This document shows, in pieces, positions 6,612-39,896 of a stretch of DNA of 39,925 nucleotides. The notes under the pieces are model-generated. The model did no database searches. It was not told the origin of the DNA and worked only from the letters and a program-made list of their open reading frames with translations. Location of the stretch: positions 1 through 39,925 of IMG/VR virus record IMGVR_UViG_3300042502_001789; one strand, written 5' to 3'. How positions within the stretch are numbered: position 1 is the first letter of the stretch; the number at the start of each line of letters is the position of its first letter. The translations under genes were made by a program, and so were the position numbers. Origin of the DNA: a virus.

Positions 6612-6815
6612 ATGTCTTCATCTTCATCTTCCACTTCTGGCGGTATTTCATTCACCGGAATGCTCCAGATTCTGTTTATCGGTCTAAAGCTAACCGGCTA
6701 CATTAGCTGGCATTGGTGGCAAGTATTCCTGCCAACTATTATCCCCCTAGGTTTAGTTACAATTATCCTTGTCGGTTGGCTAATTGTTGTTCTTGTTAAC
6801 CAAGTGAACCGTTGA
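6612..6815 (+). CDS. Small two-helix membrane protein (phage 'Fragile-X-F' type)
   Basis: 67 residues with a Ser-rich N-terminus, then a hydrophobic helix (GMLQILFIGLKLTG), a short ISWHWWQV loop and a second helix (IIPLGLVTIILVGWLIVVLV). The pattern 'LQI-FI-LKLTG-I-W-WW' is that of small phage membrane proteins often annotated transmembrane Fragile-X-F protein. The biochemical function of these is not known; an inner-membrane location is expected. Confidence 0.7.
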   Translation: MSSSSSSTSGGISFTGMLQILFIGLKLTGYISWHWWQVFLPTIIPLGLVTIILVGWLIVVLVNQVNR

Positions 6816-6885
6816 GGCCCCCTGTAAGACCCGTTTGTAGCTCATCCACTGGTAACACCCCAACCTTTGTTGCACCCTAAGCAAA

Positions 6886-7053
6886 ATGGCAAGCTTCACC
6901 GACGAACGTTACATGGACCTGGCTACGGAAATTTACCTCCACCTTATCCGGGAGAGTGGACCTCATGCACTTCTTGACTTCGAACTGAGGGAACTAGCGA
7001 AAAGGGCAGACGATGCTGCAGCTGCTCTGGCGGATCGATTCCTGGAGGAATGA
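6886..7053 (+). CDS. Hypothetical small helical protein
   Basis: 55 residues from ATG 6886 (MASFTDERYMDLATEIYLHL at the start), all-helical with an Ala/Asp-rich second half (KRADDAAAALADRF). Its TGA overlaps the next ATG (ATGA at 7050). Confidence 0.65.
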   Translation: MASFTDERYMDLATEIYLHLIRESGPHALLDFELRELAKRADDAAAALADRFLEE

Positions 7054-7481
7054 GCCAACCTTGCATGAAAACATACCAATTTTGGTACGGATCCCCGCAC
7101 GGTGATGGGTCAGAAGTTTACTACCGGTCCAATCCTCAACCGGTGTTCGAGTGCTACTGCGAAGGAATCGACAAAGCAGTGAAACTATTTGAAGCACAAA
7201 CACAAAAGTCCTTCATGAGGGGGTACAGCATAAGTGTGGATTCGGACTTAAGCTTCCCGGAAGTGAACTACTACGATCGCCCGAACTTTGCACCTGTAAA
7301 GGGTTTCAGGGGTGTGAGTAGACTACGTTGGAGGTTAAGCTTTAAGCTATGGTGCGCCTACCGTGAAATTGTACATAGTTGGAGAGCTGGGGCCGGTTTC
7401 CCGCCCTTGCTTTATTGGGCAGAAAGCGGTATAGTAGAGTCAGTTAACCCACCTTTGGCCAACAGCCATGAACACCTCTAA
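7050..7481 (+). CDS. Hypothetical protein whose 3' end contains a promoter cassette
   Basis: 143 residues; M6 (7065) is an alternative start. Residues about 6-75 look like an alpha/beta domain. The last 30 codons (from about 7391) are simply translated cassette copy 2, giving an unusual Gly/Pro/Trp-rich tail, and the frame overlaps the next gene by 14 nt. An original stop may have been lost, or the cassette may have recombined into the gene. No function was recognised. Confidence 0.55.
   Translation: MSQPCMKTYQFWYGSPHGDGSEVYYRSNPQPVFECYCEGIDKAVKLFEAQTQKSFMRGYSISVDSDLSFPEVNYYDRPNFAPVKGFRGVSRLRWRLSFKLWCAYREIVHSWRAGAGFPPLLYWAESGIVESVNPPLANSHEHL
7392..7435 (+). promoter_or_regulatory. Promoter cassette copy 2 (inside a coding 3' end)
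   Basis: GCCGGTTTCCCGCC arm, TTGCTT (7407-7412), 17-bp spacer, TATAGT (7430-7435). The spacer dyad is GCTTT/AAAGC instead of the canonical arms. It drives the 7468 gene cluster. Confidence 0.75.
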
Positions 7482-12789: not shown

Positions 12790-12856
12790 TGGGCGGTTAA
12801 CCGCTCGCTCTGGGGCGGTTTACCGGCTTGTTTCTGCAGGGCAGAAACGGTATAGT
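12790..12856 (+). promoter_or_regulatory. Promoter cassette copy 5 (two-arm form)
   Basis: First arm GGGCGGTTAACCGC (contains the GGTTAACC palindrome), second arm GGGGCGGTTTACCGG, then TTGTTT (12828-12833), a 17-bp spacer with the perfect TTTCTGC/GCAGAAA dyad, TATAGT (12851-12856) and GTTACAGCGA. Confidence 0.9.
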
Positions 12857-12879
12857 AGTTACAGCGAACTTCACCAACC

Positions 12880-14565: not shown

Positions 14566-14631
14566 AGGGCGGTTTCCCGTTTGCCCTGGGGCGGTTTACC
14601 CCTTGTTTCTGCCCCGCAGAAACGGTATAGT
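14566..14631 (+). promoter_or_regulatory. Promoter cassette copy 6 (two-arm form)
   Basis: Arms GGGCGGTTTCCCG and GGGGCGGTTTACCCC, TTGTTT (14603-14608), 17-bp spacer with CTGC/GCAG dyad, TATAGT (14626-14631), GTTACAGCGA. It drives the gene at 14697. Confidence 0.9.
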
Positions 14632-14696
14632 AGTTACAGCGAGTCAGTTCAGCACTGGCTCAATCGCGATTTCTAACCCGACCCTTTACTCTGAAA

Positions 14697-15463: not shown

Positions 15464-15530
15464 GGGGCGGTTTACCGTTCTCCCTGGGGCGGTTTACCGG
15501 CTTGTTTCTGCTGATCAGAAACGGTATAAT
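15464..15530 (+). promoter_or_regulatory. Promoter cassette copy 7 (two-arm form)
   Basis: Arms GGGGCGGTTTACCG and GGGGCGGTTTACCGG, TTGTTT (15502-15507), 17-bp spacer with TTTCTG/CAGAAA around a GATC centre, perfect TATAAT (15525-15530), AATACAGCGAA. Confidence 0.9.
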
Positions 15531-15554
15531 AAATACAGCGAACCGACCCCGGCA

Positions 15555-17008: not shown

Positions 17009-17055
17009 GGGGCGGTTTCCACCCCCCTGTTTCTGCTCGGCAGAAACGGTATAAT
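17009..17055 (+). promoter_or_regulatory. Promoter cassette copy 8
   Basis: GGGGCGGTTTCCACC arm, CTGTTT (17027-17032), 17-bp spacer with perfect TTTCTGC/GCAGAAA, TATAAT (17050-17055). The leader AAAAGGCACCCCACAATG is nearly the same as after copy 9. Confidence 0.9.
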
Positions 17056-17079
17056 AAGTGAGTTAAAAGGCACCCCACA

Positions 17080-17426
17080 ATGACAGTCCCTGCTTCCCTA
17101 CTACTTTCAATTCTTTGTAAAGCCAAAGAGCTTGATGTTCGATTTGAGCTTAGTTCCTGTGAGGTGTTCGAATCCCCCGCTACGACGTAAACTTTTACTT
17201 CCCTGATCGCTACACTGTGGACAGGTGTTCCCTGACCATCTCAAATATGGACATCGGGGAGGTAACCTTCGGGCAGGTGAATGAAAGCCTACTCCTAAGA
17301 GAGGCTTCGCTCAGGCAGCAGGAACTCGACCGGCAAGACAGCGAAAGGAAAGAGCTTCTGGAGCGGTTAAACCTATCCGATAAAGACATGGAGTTACTCG
17401 GGTTGCACCCTTCGCCTAGCCATTAG
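17080..17426 (+). pseudogene. Frameshifted hypothetical gene
   Basis: ATG 17080 gives 36 residues ending VFESPATT at a stop (17188). The other frame, entered at the C5 run 17175-17179, continues as RYDVNFYFPDRYTVDRCSLT and on through an acidic coiled-coil-like helix (LREASLRQQELDRQDSERKE) to 17426. One extra C would restore a 115-residue protein. A GTG at 17217 could express only the C-terminal 69 residues. Function unknown. Confidence 0.6.
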
Positions 17427-18847: not shown

Positions 18848-19081
18848 ATGACTTTCGACTCAAAGACACCCTTTGATATTACGGTAGAGCTCTCAAAGGA
18901 GCAGGTTGAGCATATTGTCCAGGAAGCAATGCTCGAAAAGTTCCGAGACTACAACGTTGCAAAAGTTTCATTTGTGATCGGAACTGAGGAGGATCGAATG
19001 GGGTACACCACCGGTCACTACCTTCGAACTGCGAAAGTTTCTCTGAGTAATAATCTGGGATCTGCTTCAAATGGACGTTGA
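18848..19081 (+). CDS. Small conserved phage protein (paralogue of the 23375 and 23599 products)
   Basis: 77 residues with the pattern 'beta strand - SKEQVEHIVQEAMLEKF - V-x-VSFVIG - charged loop - beta strand'. The 23375 and 23599 products share this layout (TKAQIEALINQEVLRSF...SISFKV). Many large phages carry such small proteins; their function is unknown. Confidence 0.65.
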   Translation: MTFDSKTPFDITVELSKEQVEHIVQEAMLEKFRDYNVAKVSFVIGTEEDRMGYTTGHYLRTAKVSLSNNLGSASNGR

Positions 19082-28107: not shown

Positions 28108-28671
28108 ATGACGCACCCCATGGAAGACGATGCACCATCCTATGACCCTGCCGAAGACAGTTTTGTCGCCACCGTCAACGAACTTGCGGCACGTACCGGC
28201 CAAAGCAAAGCAGAAGTTCTCGCGAATGCTGTGAACTTGTATTACGACTTTGTTGCTAAGCAGCAAAGTACCGACCAAGAAAAAGTTGAGATTCAACCTG
28301 GTGCTACAGCGGTGATTCAACAGAAAGGTCCATGGTGGATCGGTTGGGTTGAAGAGGTTCCTGGGGTAAACGCTCAGGAACGCACTCGTGACAGTCTTCT
28401 TGCGTCTTTGACAGAAATCCTTAGGGAAGAAGAGACACTTCGACGAGAGAAGAGGGAGAAATTACCAACGGATGAAACCCTAGTGTGGAGTATAGCTGAG
28501 CTGTTCTATCAGATAAACGGTGACTGGCTGAGTGCAAACGATGTAGCAACTAGGCTTGGCATAGATGTTAATCATGCACGGTACATCCTGGAAGGATCCC
28601 GGCAGTTTCTCCACACAACGGGCTTCGGTCACCCTCGCCTGTACACCACCAAGAAAAAATACTTCAGGTGA
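28108..28671 (+). CDS. HicB-like regulator with flanking DNA-binding regions
   Basis: 187 residues. About 19-50 looks like a ribbon-helix-helix type segment (VNELAARTGQSKAEVLANAV). About 62-110 matches the HicB antitoxin fold (GPWWIGWVEEVPGVNAQERT, then DSLLASLTEILREE). About 135-187 has a winged-helix look (SANDVATRLGIDVNHARYIL and a beta wing HPRLYTTKKKYF). HicB proteins repress and neutralise HicA toxins; no HicA is adjacent. A phage transcriptional regulator or an anti-toxin decoy are both possible. Confidence 0.6.
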   Translation: MTHPMEDDAPSYDPAEDSFVATVNELAARTGQSKAEVLANAVNLYYDFVAKQQSTDQEKVEIQPGATAVIQQKGPWWIGWVEEVPGVNAQERTRDSLLASLTEILREEETLRREKREKLPTDETLVWSIAELFYQINGDWLSANDVATRLGIDVNHARYILEGSRQFLHTTGFGHPRLYTTKKKYFR

Positions 28672-33135: not shown

Positions 33136-33138
33136 ACC

Positions 33139-33200
33139 GGTTAACCCCTTTGCTCCGGGGCGGTTTCCCCCTTGTTTCTGCGGTGCAGAAACGGTATAGT
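33139..33200 (+). promoter_or_regulatory. Promoter cassette copy 21 (two-arm form)
   Basis: ACCGGTTAACCCC and GGGGCGGTTTCCCCC arms, TTGTTT (33172-33177), 17-bp spacer with perfect TTTCTGC/GCAGAAA, TATAGT (33195-33200), TACTTCA. Confidence 0.9.
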
Positions 33201-33222
33201 TACTTCATTGACCTCCGACCCA

Positions 33223-37717: not shown

Positions 37718-38608
37718 ATGAGTCATTTCACAGTTATGGTTATTGGCCCCGACCCCGAGGCCCAACTTGCACCGTACCACGAGTTTGAGTGCACAGGAGT
37801 AGACGATGAATATGTCCAGGATGTTGACACCACAGAGGATGTCCTCAGCCGCTTAACAATAGCGGGTGTAGACGGTAAGACGGAAACTTTGCAGGAAGCT
37901 CTTGAGTACGAGGGTCTCGAAAATAGGGTTGTTGGGGACTTATCTGAAGTTGAGACGGAGGGGGACCACAAGTACGGCTGGGTCCTTGTTCAAGGCGGTC
38001 AGTTAGTGAAAGCTGTGAGGAGAACCAATCCGAACGCAAAGTGGGACTGGTACCAAGTTGGCGGGCGATGGACTGGCTTCCTTAAGCTAAAGCCCGGTGC
38101 AAAGGGGAGCGTCGGTGAACCAGGGCTAATGACACAACCTGCCTCGGTTGGTAGGGCAGACGCGGCACTTTTCGGCGACATAGACATTGAGGGAATGCGC
38201 CATGACGCCGGAGAAGAAGCCTCTGAGCGTTGGATTCGTGCTCGAAAGGTAGCACCGGAACCTTGGGAGAGTTGGGGGTCTGTTCGAAACCGATTCGACT
38301 CCCTTGACGATGCGCGAGAGTTTTACGACGGTCAAAATGCCGTTAAAGCTTTGACTCGTGAGCAATTTTGGGACAGAAAGGACCAGTTTCTAACTGACCA
38401 TGACACCTATGTCGAAGACGCACGGAACGCCGCGTTGACAACTTTTGCAGTCATCTACCAAGGAACCTGGCACGAGCGTGGAGAAATGGGATTGTTTGGG
38501 TGTGTCTCCGACGAGAAAGAAAAAGGTGTTTGGGCAGAAACCGTTGAGGGAATTCTGAGCAAGCTTACGCCCACCGATTTAGTCACAATTGTTGACTGTC
38601 ACATTTAA
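37718..38608 (+). CDS. Conserved phage protein (MSHFTV family)
   Basis: 296 residues. MSHFTVMVIGPDPEAQLAPY, HEFECTGVDDEYVQDVD and NPNAKWDWYQVGGRWTGFL are typical of a phage protein family of unknown function. The C-terminal part has WHERGEMGLFGCVSDEKE. Length agrees with family members I know. Confidence 0.78.
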   Translation: MSHFTVMVIGPDPEAQLAPYHEFECTGVDDEYVQDVDTTEDVLSRLTIAGVDGKTETLQEALEYEGLENRVVGDLSEVETEGDHKYGWVLVQGGQLVKAVRRTNPNAKWDWYQVGGRWTGFLKLKPGAKGSVGEPGLMTQPASVGRADAALFGDIDIEGMRHDAGEEASERWIRARKVAPEPWESWGSVRNRFDSLDDAREFYDGQNAVKALTREQFWDRKDQFLTDHDTYVEDARNAALTTFAVIYQGTWHERGEMGLFGCVSDEKEKGVWAETVEGILSKLTPTDLVTIVDCHI

Positions 38609-38638
38609 CCCCGCGTCTGCCATACAAAAACACAAGGC

Positions 38639-38705
38639 AGGGCGGTTTCCCGAACTACCGAGGGCGGTTTCCCGGCTTGTTTCTGATCAGCAGAAACGGT
38701 ATAGT
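38639..38705 (+). promoter_or_regulatory. Promoter cassette copy 24 (two-arm form)
   Basis: Arms GGGCGGTTTCCCG and GGGCGGTTTCCCGG, TTGTTT (38677-38682), 17-bp spacer with CTG/CAG around ATCAG, TATAGT (38700-38705). ATG follows after exactly 6 nt. Confidence 0.9.
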
Positions 38706-38711
38706 AAGTTC

Positions 38712-39116
38712 ATGGAAAGCAAAGCCCCGATGATCTACGCCACCGCCGCTCGCTCCCCAATCGCGCACATCCTGGGCGGGTCCCAGTTCACCGCAGAGCC
38801 TTGCGACTCACCCGCAAAACAGCGGAGGCAATGGTGGGACGTGTGTGAACGCCCGGACCAGGACATTTGCCTTGAGGACGGCGAGTTTCAGCTTTCCGGA
38901 CCGCACGGCTTCCGCAGAATCGCACGGTTTACAGGGCGAATGCGCTGGGTCAACTCCGGCACCTGTGCACCTACAATCGAGGTATTCGATGTGGAAACGG
39001 TTGTTGCAATGGTGGGGGACCTCCCCGTGATTGTGGGATGCAGAGGTGAGCGAATCAAGGGAACCTGGTGGACTCACTGGAATGCTGTGAACCACGATGT
39101 TGTAACCCTGAAGTGA
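38712..39116 (+). CDS. Hypothetical protein, probably leaderless
   Basis: 134 residues from ATG 38712, six nucleotides after the -10 box (M7 at 38730 is the alternative). MESKAPMI resembles MENTAPMI of the 26031 gene. The body (WWDVCERPDQDICLEDGEFQ, TRRIARF-like strands) was not recognised. Confidence 0.65.
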   Translation: MESKAPMIYATAARSPIAHILGGSQFTAEPCDSPAKQRRQWWDVCERPDQDICLEDGEFQLSGPHGFRRIARFTGRMRWVNSGTCAPTIEVFDVETVVAMVGDLPVIVGCRGERIKGTWWTHWNAVNHDVVTLK

Positions 39117-39121
39117 CTGTT

Positions 39122-39520
39122 ATGAAGTACTACAGCGACTATCCGACGGAGCGGATTGGCAAGGGAAACCCGTACAACTGCTGTTCCTATTGAAAAGTTT
39201 CCGTCCCGTCAATATACGGCAACCTTGAAAACCACTTAGAATGGTGCGAGTACCGCAGACTCAAAACTCTTGAGGAGGACCTGGAGCTTGCAAAACTAGA
39301 GATCGAGTGCCTTAAGCTGGAAGCTCAACAGCCCCTACATTGCGTATTTCGCAGCTGGTCTGAAGAGTATTTAGGATCAGGAGATGACGTCTCAACCTTA
39401 AAGCTTTTTCGCTGTGCCAAAGACGCTCTCAAGTACGAGGACCAGCTTAAGAAAGAGCACAATTGCGACAGAGACGGAAGTACGGATTTTGTAGAAACAA
39501 CGACTAAACACATTCTCTGA
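39122..39520 (+). pseudogene. Zinc-finger phage protein with in-frame UGA at a cysteine position
   Basis: ATG 39122 starts MKYYSDYPTERIGKGNPYNC and CSY, then TGA (39191-39193). The same frame continues to 39520 as KVSVPSIYGNLENHLEWCEY and a coiled-coil helix (LKTLEEDLELAKLEIECLKL). The family pattern, NPY..C-x2-C...H-x3-C, requires Cys exactly at the TGA (C-S-Y-[UGA]...H-L-E-W-C). Total 133 codons. Nonsense mutation (TGC/TGT to TGA), sequencing error, readthrough or selenocysteine are the options. No internal ATG can express the C-terminal part. Confidence 0.65.
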
Positions 39521-39527
39521 GTTTAAC

Positions 39528-39896
39528 GTGAAAGTTTTCCTTGACGATGAAAGGCCCACGCCAGGCGGCTGGGTACGTGCCTTCACCGCCCCTGAAGCAA
39601 TCGATCTTCTTAAAACCGGAAAGGTTACACAACTTTCCCTTGACCACGACCTTGGGCCGGAAGAAGCAGGAACTGGATACGACGTTTGCCTGTGGGTGGA
39701 AGAGAAAATCTTCTCTCAAGATTTTTGCACTGAGAACCCTTTTGTACCTCCAATCATGATTGTGCATTCCGCCAACCCTGTTGGTCGGCAACGAATGGAA
39801 CTTGCTATTCAGATGATTTACCATAACTTTAAGGTTACTCAGCCTGTGGCCGGTACGGTTTTCCGTCCCCTTGCTCCCCCGCAACAGGGGCTATAA
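39528..39896 (+). CDS. cREC-like receiver-fold protein
   Basis: 122 residues from GTG 39528. KVFLDDERPTPGGWVRAFTA, LSLDHDLGPEEAGTGYDVCL and HSANPVGRQRMELAIQMI are the signature blocks of the cREC ('cyclic-phosphate processing receiver') domain, with D6/D7 and D44-type acidic residues and a conserved H-S-A-N. Its function is predicted only (nucleic-acid or cyclic-phosphate related). The last codons overlap cassette copy 25. Confidence 0.7.
   Translation: MKVFLDDERPTPGGWVRAFTAPEAIDLLKTGKVTQLSLDHDLGPEEAGTGYDVCLWVEEKIFSQDFCTENPFVPPIMIVHSANPVGRQRMELAIQMIYHNFKVTQPVAGTVFRPLAPPQQGL

Follow-up and report, generated by a model that had tools for sequence, protein, structure and literature searches.

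Bacterial selenoproteins with a C-x-x-U motif carry a UGA codon exactly where their cysteine-containing homologues have Cys. CxxU motifs are present in selenoproteins, and published selenoprotein surveys look for UGA at the same site in two or more independent sequences; an in-frame TGA seen in a single sequence is held to be only a candidate, since it may reflect a sequencing error (PMC1088965). Selenocysteine (Sec) has also been suggested as a possible metal ligand in the SaoB, SaoC, and UXX-star proteins (PMC13188914). Genes of the mobilome show an excess of in-frame stops, and nonsense-disrupted genes of phages and other mobile elements have one such stop within an otherwise undamaged, formerly selected, accessory frame; UGA is, in addition, a leaky stop in bacteria, with Trp inserted upon readthrough (PMC7918605). 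Finally, some large phages have reassigned stop codons, as in the crAss-like phages, which reassign TAG (PMC9523058).

The DNA analysed here (the window) is an entire virus contig of 39,925 bases with linear ends. It contains a gene of 132 codons plus its own TGA terminator (Table 1), which reads MKYYSDYPTERIGKGNPYNCCSY, an internal TGA, KVSVPSIYGNLENHLEWCEYRRL...KHIL and then the terminator. The internal TGA, in the context NPYNCCSY[TGA]KVSV...NHLEWC, is the only stop within the frame. The translation thus agrees with the original prediction, made from the sequence alone, of a 133-codon frame with one TGA, which that prediction had placed at a zinc-finger cysteine. Downstream of the TGA the frame has no ATG, GTG, or TTG codon; consequently, reinitiation is unlikely and was rejected.

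Table 1. Features of the interrupted gene, its surroundings, and insert-bearing tRNA genes of related phages
Feature	Coordinates	Strand	Evidence
Upstream gene, no family match	38589..39116	+	93% protein identity in G005, shared TGA stop
Gene cassette wholly missing from G005, between homologues of both flanking genes	39117..39524	+	blastn blocks
Interrupted gene, small phage zinc-finger family	39122..39520	+	homology before and after the stop, substitutions of a purifying kind
First metal-ligand Cys codon (C21), predicted ligand	39182..39184	+	invariant column
In-frame TGA, codon 24 of 133, at invariant Cys column	39191..39193	+	50 of 50 homologous loci TGT (42) or TGC (8)
Ligand His codon (H38), predicted ligand	39233..39235	+	invariant column
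Last ligand Cys codon (C42), predicted ligand	39245..39247	+	invariant column
Downstream gene, cyclic-phosphate-processing receiver domain (cREC_REC, PF20274)	39528..39896	+	E = 4.2e-26
Insert-bearing tRNA genes, G005	L127:5855-5966, 6766-6887; L124:18383-18501, 18913-19071		
Insert-bearing tRNA genes, G007	L198:217-335, 440-562, 681-799; L199:159-276		
Further insert-bearing tRNA-like entries	L201-L216		

A tblastn search of phages with the read-through protein finds, at low E-values, Synechococcus phage B23, Xanthomonas phage XacN1, and Myxococcus phage Mx1. The family that emerges includes B23 gp109, XacN1 ORF418, Mx1 WNM70205.1, and many IMG/VR contigs. Residues C21, C24, H38, and C42 are invariant in these three phages and in 19 viral contigs, and the TGA of the window falls at C24, the cysteine at which it had been predicted to lie. 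The family signature is IGxxNPYxxCxxC followed by H-x3-C; the window gene shares this N-terminal domain, with C21, H38, and C42 in place, and departs from it only at the interrupted second Cys, where, unlike the homologues found, it has UGA. The C-x2-C...H-x3-C arrangement has the look of a structural zinc site of the CCHC type and not of a redox pair. The original prediction had spoken of a known small phage family. Such a family is indeed easily found by homology, whereas no named entry for it was found in Pfam or PHROGs. The predicted structure of the window protein is confident (pLDDT 88), but a fold search of the PDB gave no match below E = 0.001, and the model is therefore uninformative on function.

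Two surveys addressed the codon at the Cys column. A search for relatives that used only the window protein gave no matches, and an alignment of four members was required; this alignment retrieved 29 viral loci, all 29 with TGT or TGC at the codon-24 equivalent. In the other, the search pattern for viral contigs was stopped before codon 24, which guards against a bias toward Cys. This codon-blind survey gave 58 matches, 50 of which belong to the family (35 distinct domain sequences), and the codon-24 equivalent is TGA in none of the 50 (Table 1). Where the pattern required the TGA, viral contigs yielded one chance match, as did the genome contigs of 84,980 species; five chance matches came from a control pattern in which the TGA stood at the other Cys. 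The TGA-pattern matches L035 and L191-L196 were rejected as family members, being chance matches outside it.

The frame continues past the stop as a recognizable gene. The closest homologue, L006, is intact, with 129 codons and a stop from the aligned ATG, and is the only homologue found to share the 80-residue C-terminal extension of the window gene. Residues 1-114 of the window protein align with it at 54% identity. After the stop, 61 of 119 substitutions between the two are at third positions, and pN is 0.32 against a pS of 0.92, a purifying pattern by which the sequence after the TGA is evidently genuine former coding sequence. Since pS is saturated, these values reflect past selection rather than selection since the stop arose; for the same reason, dN/dS relative to L006 failed to date the stop, and relaxed selection after it is likewise not demonstrable.

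The nearest relative of the window is a viral contig of 277,244 bases (IMGVR_UViG_3300044625_001067; G005), which is collinear with it over about 37 kb, in blocks mostly of 85-96% DNA identity. Thus, the window very probably represents part of a phage genome of jumbo size. In this relative, and in its 56-kb sister contig, the zinc-finger gene is absent at a clean blastn junction, where window position 39116 joins 39525 with 2 bp between. No family member was found in the whole 277 kb of G005 or in the sequence examined of three further relatives (G006, G007, G008), and a DNA search of G005-G007 for the gene gave nothing. The clean absence of the entire gene argues that it is dispensable, and so loss of the zinc-finger protein would plausibly be tolerated.

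The use of UGA as a stop was assessed in 29 genes that are conserved between the window and G005 and that diverge with a third-position bias. TGA ends 14 of the 29 and is the commonest stop of the phage; it is present in both members of 11 pairs and is exchanged with TAA in 3, and it also terminates the interrupted gene. Two other genes of the window differ from G005 at their ends. The gene at 28108-28671 ends with TGA where G005 reads TGG and 17 more, almost fully matching residues, and the gene at 7050-7481 has TGG where G005 (5580) has TGA, with 20 identical residues beyond. By comparison of the two sequences, these are evidently cases in which a UGA at a Trp codon removes a short C-terminal stretch.

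The window contains no tRNA genes; G005 has about 55 tRNA matches. ARAGORN, applied to the stretches of G005 that bear tRNAs and to the complete G001 (the contig that carries L006), called no tRNA with a UCA, UUA, or CUA anticodon, a few insert-bearing tRNA genes being without an assignable anticodon. Both relatives contain a match to the Rfam tRNA-Sec model (RF01852) that exceeds its gathering score (L119:1501-1589 in G005; L120:1501-1584 in G001). However, ARAGORN calls both of them tRNA-Ser(UGA), and direct reading of the G005 sequence confirms this, so their identity as tRNA-Sec was rejected. Rfam tRNA-Sec matches in large phages can thus represent tRNA-Ser(UGA), and published reports of tRNA-Sec genes in huge phages (e.g., PMC10747093) should be read with this in mind.

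Tests for Sec insertion in the window and its phage relatives were negative. The published bacterial SECIS (bSECIS) model specifies a hairpin 16-37 nt from the UGA with a loop of 3-9 nt, an early G in the loop, and a free energy of -7.5 kcal/mol or lower (PMC13188914). With these constraints coded, no bSECIS candidate was found at the UGA of the window, while the positive control, E. coli fdhF, passes (-14.2 kcal/mol, loop GGUC). The test is lenient: about a third of randomly chosen places in the window (103 of 300) satisfy it, and the window UGA fails even so. The original prediction had noted no convincing SECIS, only a CCGT/ACGG stem; this stem is present, but its distance of 11 nt from the UGA and its 11-nt loop, which starts with CC, place it outside the model, and local folding near the UGA is no better than that of shuffled sequence (z = +0.42). 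An Rfam SECIS scan gave no match, models of selA and selB found nothing in the window or in four phage relatives, and tRNA scans of the window and its relatives found no selC, the G005 and G001 matches being the serine tRNAs described above.

A stop at a zinc-ligand Cys is also less striking than it may seem. There are 22 one-step routes to TGA in the interrupted gene, 8 of which start from Cys codons, in line with the earlier remark that one base change from TGC or TGT suffices; 3 of the 22 start from a zinc-ligand Cys. A one-step TGA mutation in this gene would therefore hit a Cys codon with a probability of 29-36% and one of the three zinc cysteines with a probability of 11-14%. With about a third of the TGA nonsense routes at Cys and about an eighth at zinc Cys, the coincidence is mild. 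Since Cys codons are a main one-step source of UGA, a UGA at Cys is by itself weak evidence of recoding.

Could the UGA nevertheless be decoded? Its position is that of a selenoprotein, in that an in-frame UGA is aligned precisely with an invariant Cys of the homologues, and both CxxU motifs and Sec as a metal ligand have precedents, as noted above. If so, host machinery would create a C-x2-U site, and the result would be surprising, a selenoprotein of a phage in which Sec binds the metal; we know of no phage protein in which selenium takes the place of a zinc ligand. Unlike bacterial C-x-x-U selenoproteins, however, the window gene has no SECIS, no recurrence of the UGA in a second family member (0 of 50 homologous loci), and no Sec genes in its phage group, and its motif is apparently of the structural zinc rather than the redox type. 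Sec is thus actively disfavoured, beyond merely unproven, and is very improbable; we give equally little credence to an unusual host apparatus that would read the UGA as Sec or Cys through a non-canonical SECIS. The evidence instead makes this locus a worked negative for UGA-at-Cys. A change of the genetic code in the phage group, or a phage-encoded UGA suppressor tRNA, might be sought in view of the reassigned stops of large phages and the roughly 50 tRNA genes of the relatives. It was rejected on the stop usage and the anticodon lists: UGA is a conserved stop that exchanges with TAA, the UCA anticodon is lacking from the ARAGORN-called tRNAs of the G005 stretches and G001, and the in-frame TGA is one of a kind. 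This is the least probable of the explanations. Low-level near-cognate readthrough, mostly by tRNA-Trp, would yield some full-length protein, and the leakiness of bacterial UGA, the abundance of in-frame stops in the mobilome, and the intact downstream frame are all compatible with it. Against it, this phage terminates its genes most often with UGA, and the called tRNAs of its relatives include none that reads UGA. Moreover, Trp cannot serve in place of a zinc-ligand Cys, so that the readthrough product would lack a family-invariant ligand. Readthrough is quite improbable, if somewhat less so than Sec.

There remain a real stop and an erroneous one, the two origins that had been considered likeliest from the start, with readthrough left as an option; the homologues, the SECIS test, the stop usage, the tRNAs, and the nearest relative all agree with that judgement. 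A base-call or assembly error in the metagenomic contig, with Cys and an intact gene in the actual virus, fits the lack of a second copy of the UGA allele among the relatives and the TGA-specific scans, the undamaged remainder of the frame, and the practice of treating single-sequence TGAs as mere candidates. However, substitution errors are rare in assembled consensus sequence, no gene among the G005-conserved genes examined is broken mid-gene in the window, and an accessory gene of this type would tolerate a real nonsense allele. Such an error is a reading to be taken seriously, albeit an unlikely one. The probable explanation is that an accessory zinc-finger gene of a large tailed phage has recently acquired a nonsense mutation. 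A single-base substitution would have changed the second zinc-binding Cys codon to UGA, translation would terminate after 23 residues, and the zinc-finger protein would not be produced, a loss tolerated because the gene, subject to gain and loss, is accessory and dispensable. Three parts of this account are inferred: a genuine base at this site, a recent date for the change, given the undamaged remainder of the frame, and tolerance of the loss. In favor of a nonsense allele are the single stop in an otherwise intact frame and the other truncating stops of the window/G005 pair (28108-28671; G005 5580); counting against it, no second lesion is present past the stop, which also fits readthrough or a base error. 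The gene has intact homologues, a single disabling change, and a close relative that dispenses with it, and it shows no essential difference from the nonsense-disrupted genes described for mobile elements (PMC7918605). The result is ordinary.

Several other features of this phage group were observed. Some tRNA genes of the relatives (Table 1) are longer by about 40-85 bases in the anticodon-arm/variable region, while their acceptor, D, and T arms are intact. A hairpin motif like TATCTTG-n-CAAGATACATCAGCAATTA is common to several of these inserts, in tRNAs with different acceptor stems, and a scan for it matched 16 IMG/VR contigs, with every copy inside a tRNA-like gene; the inserts are possibly small tRNA introns or modified tRNA-like RNAs. 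The first 808 bases of the window are coding sequence with short-period repeats. They align with G005 at its far end (258-277 kb) in numerous staggered registers, reminiscent of a tail-fibre or other repeat protein. A repeated element of 50-95 bp is present in the window at 12791-12868, 14567-14642, 15465-15543, 17013-17084, 33138-33207, and 38639-38733, and also at many places in G005. The copy at 38639-38733 contains two near-identical GGGCGGTTTCCCG stretches and is intergenic, before the likely ATG of the gene upstream of the zinc-finger gene; given this position, the element may act as a promoter or regulatory repeat of the phage.
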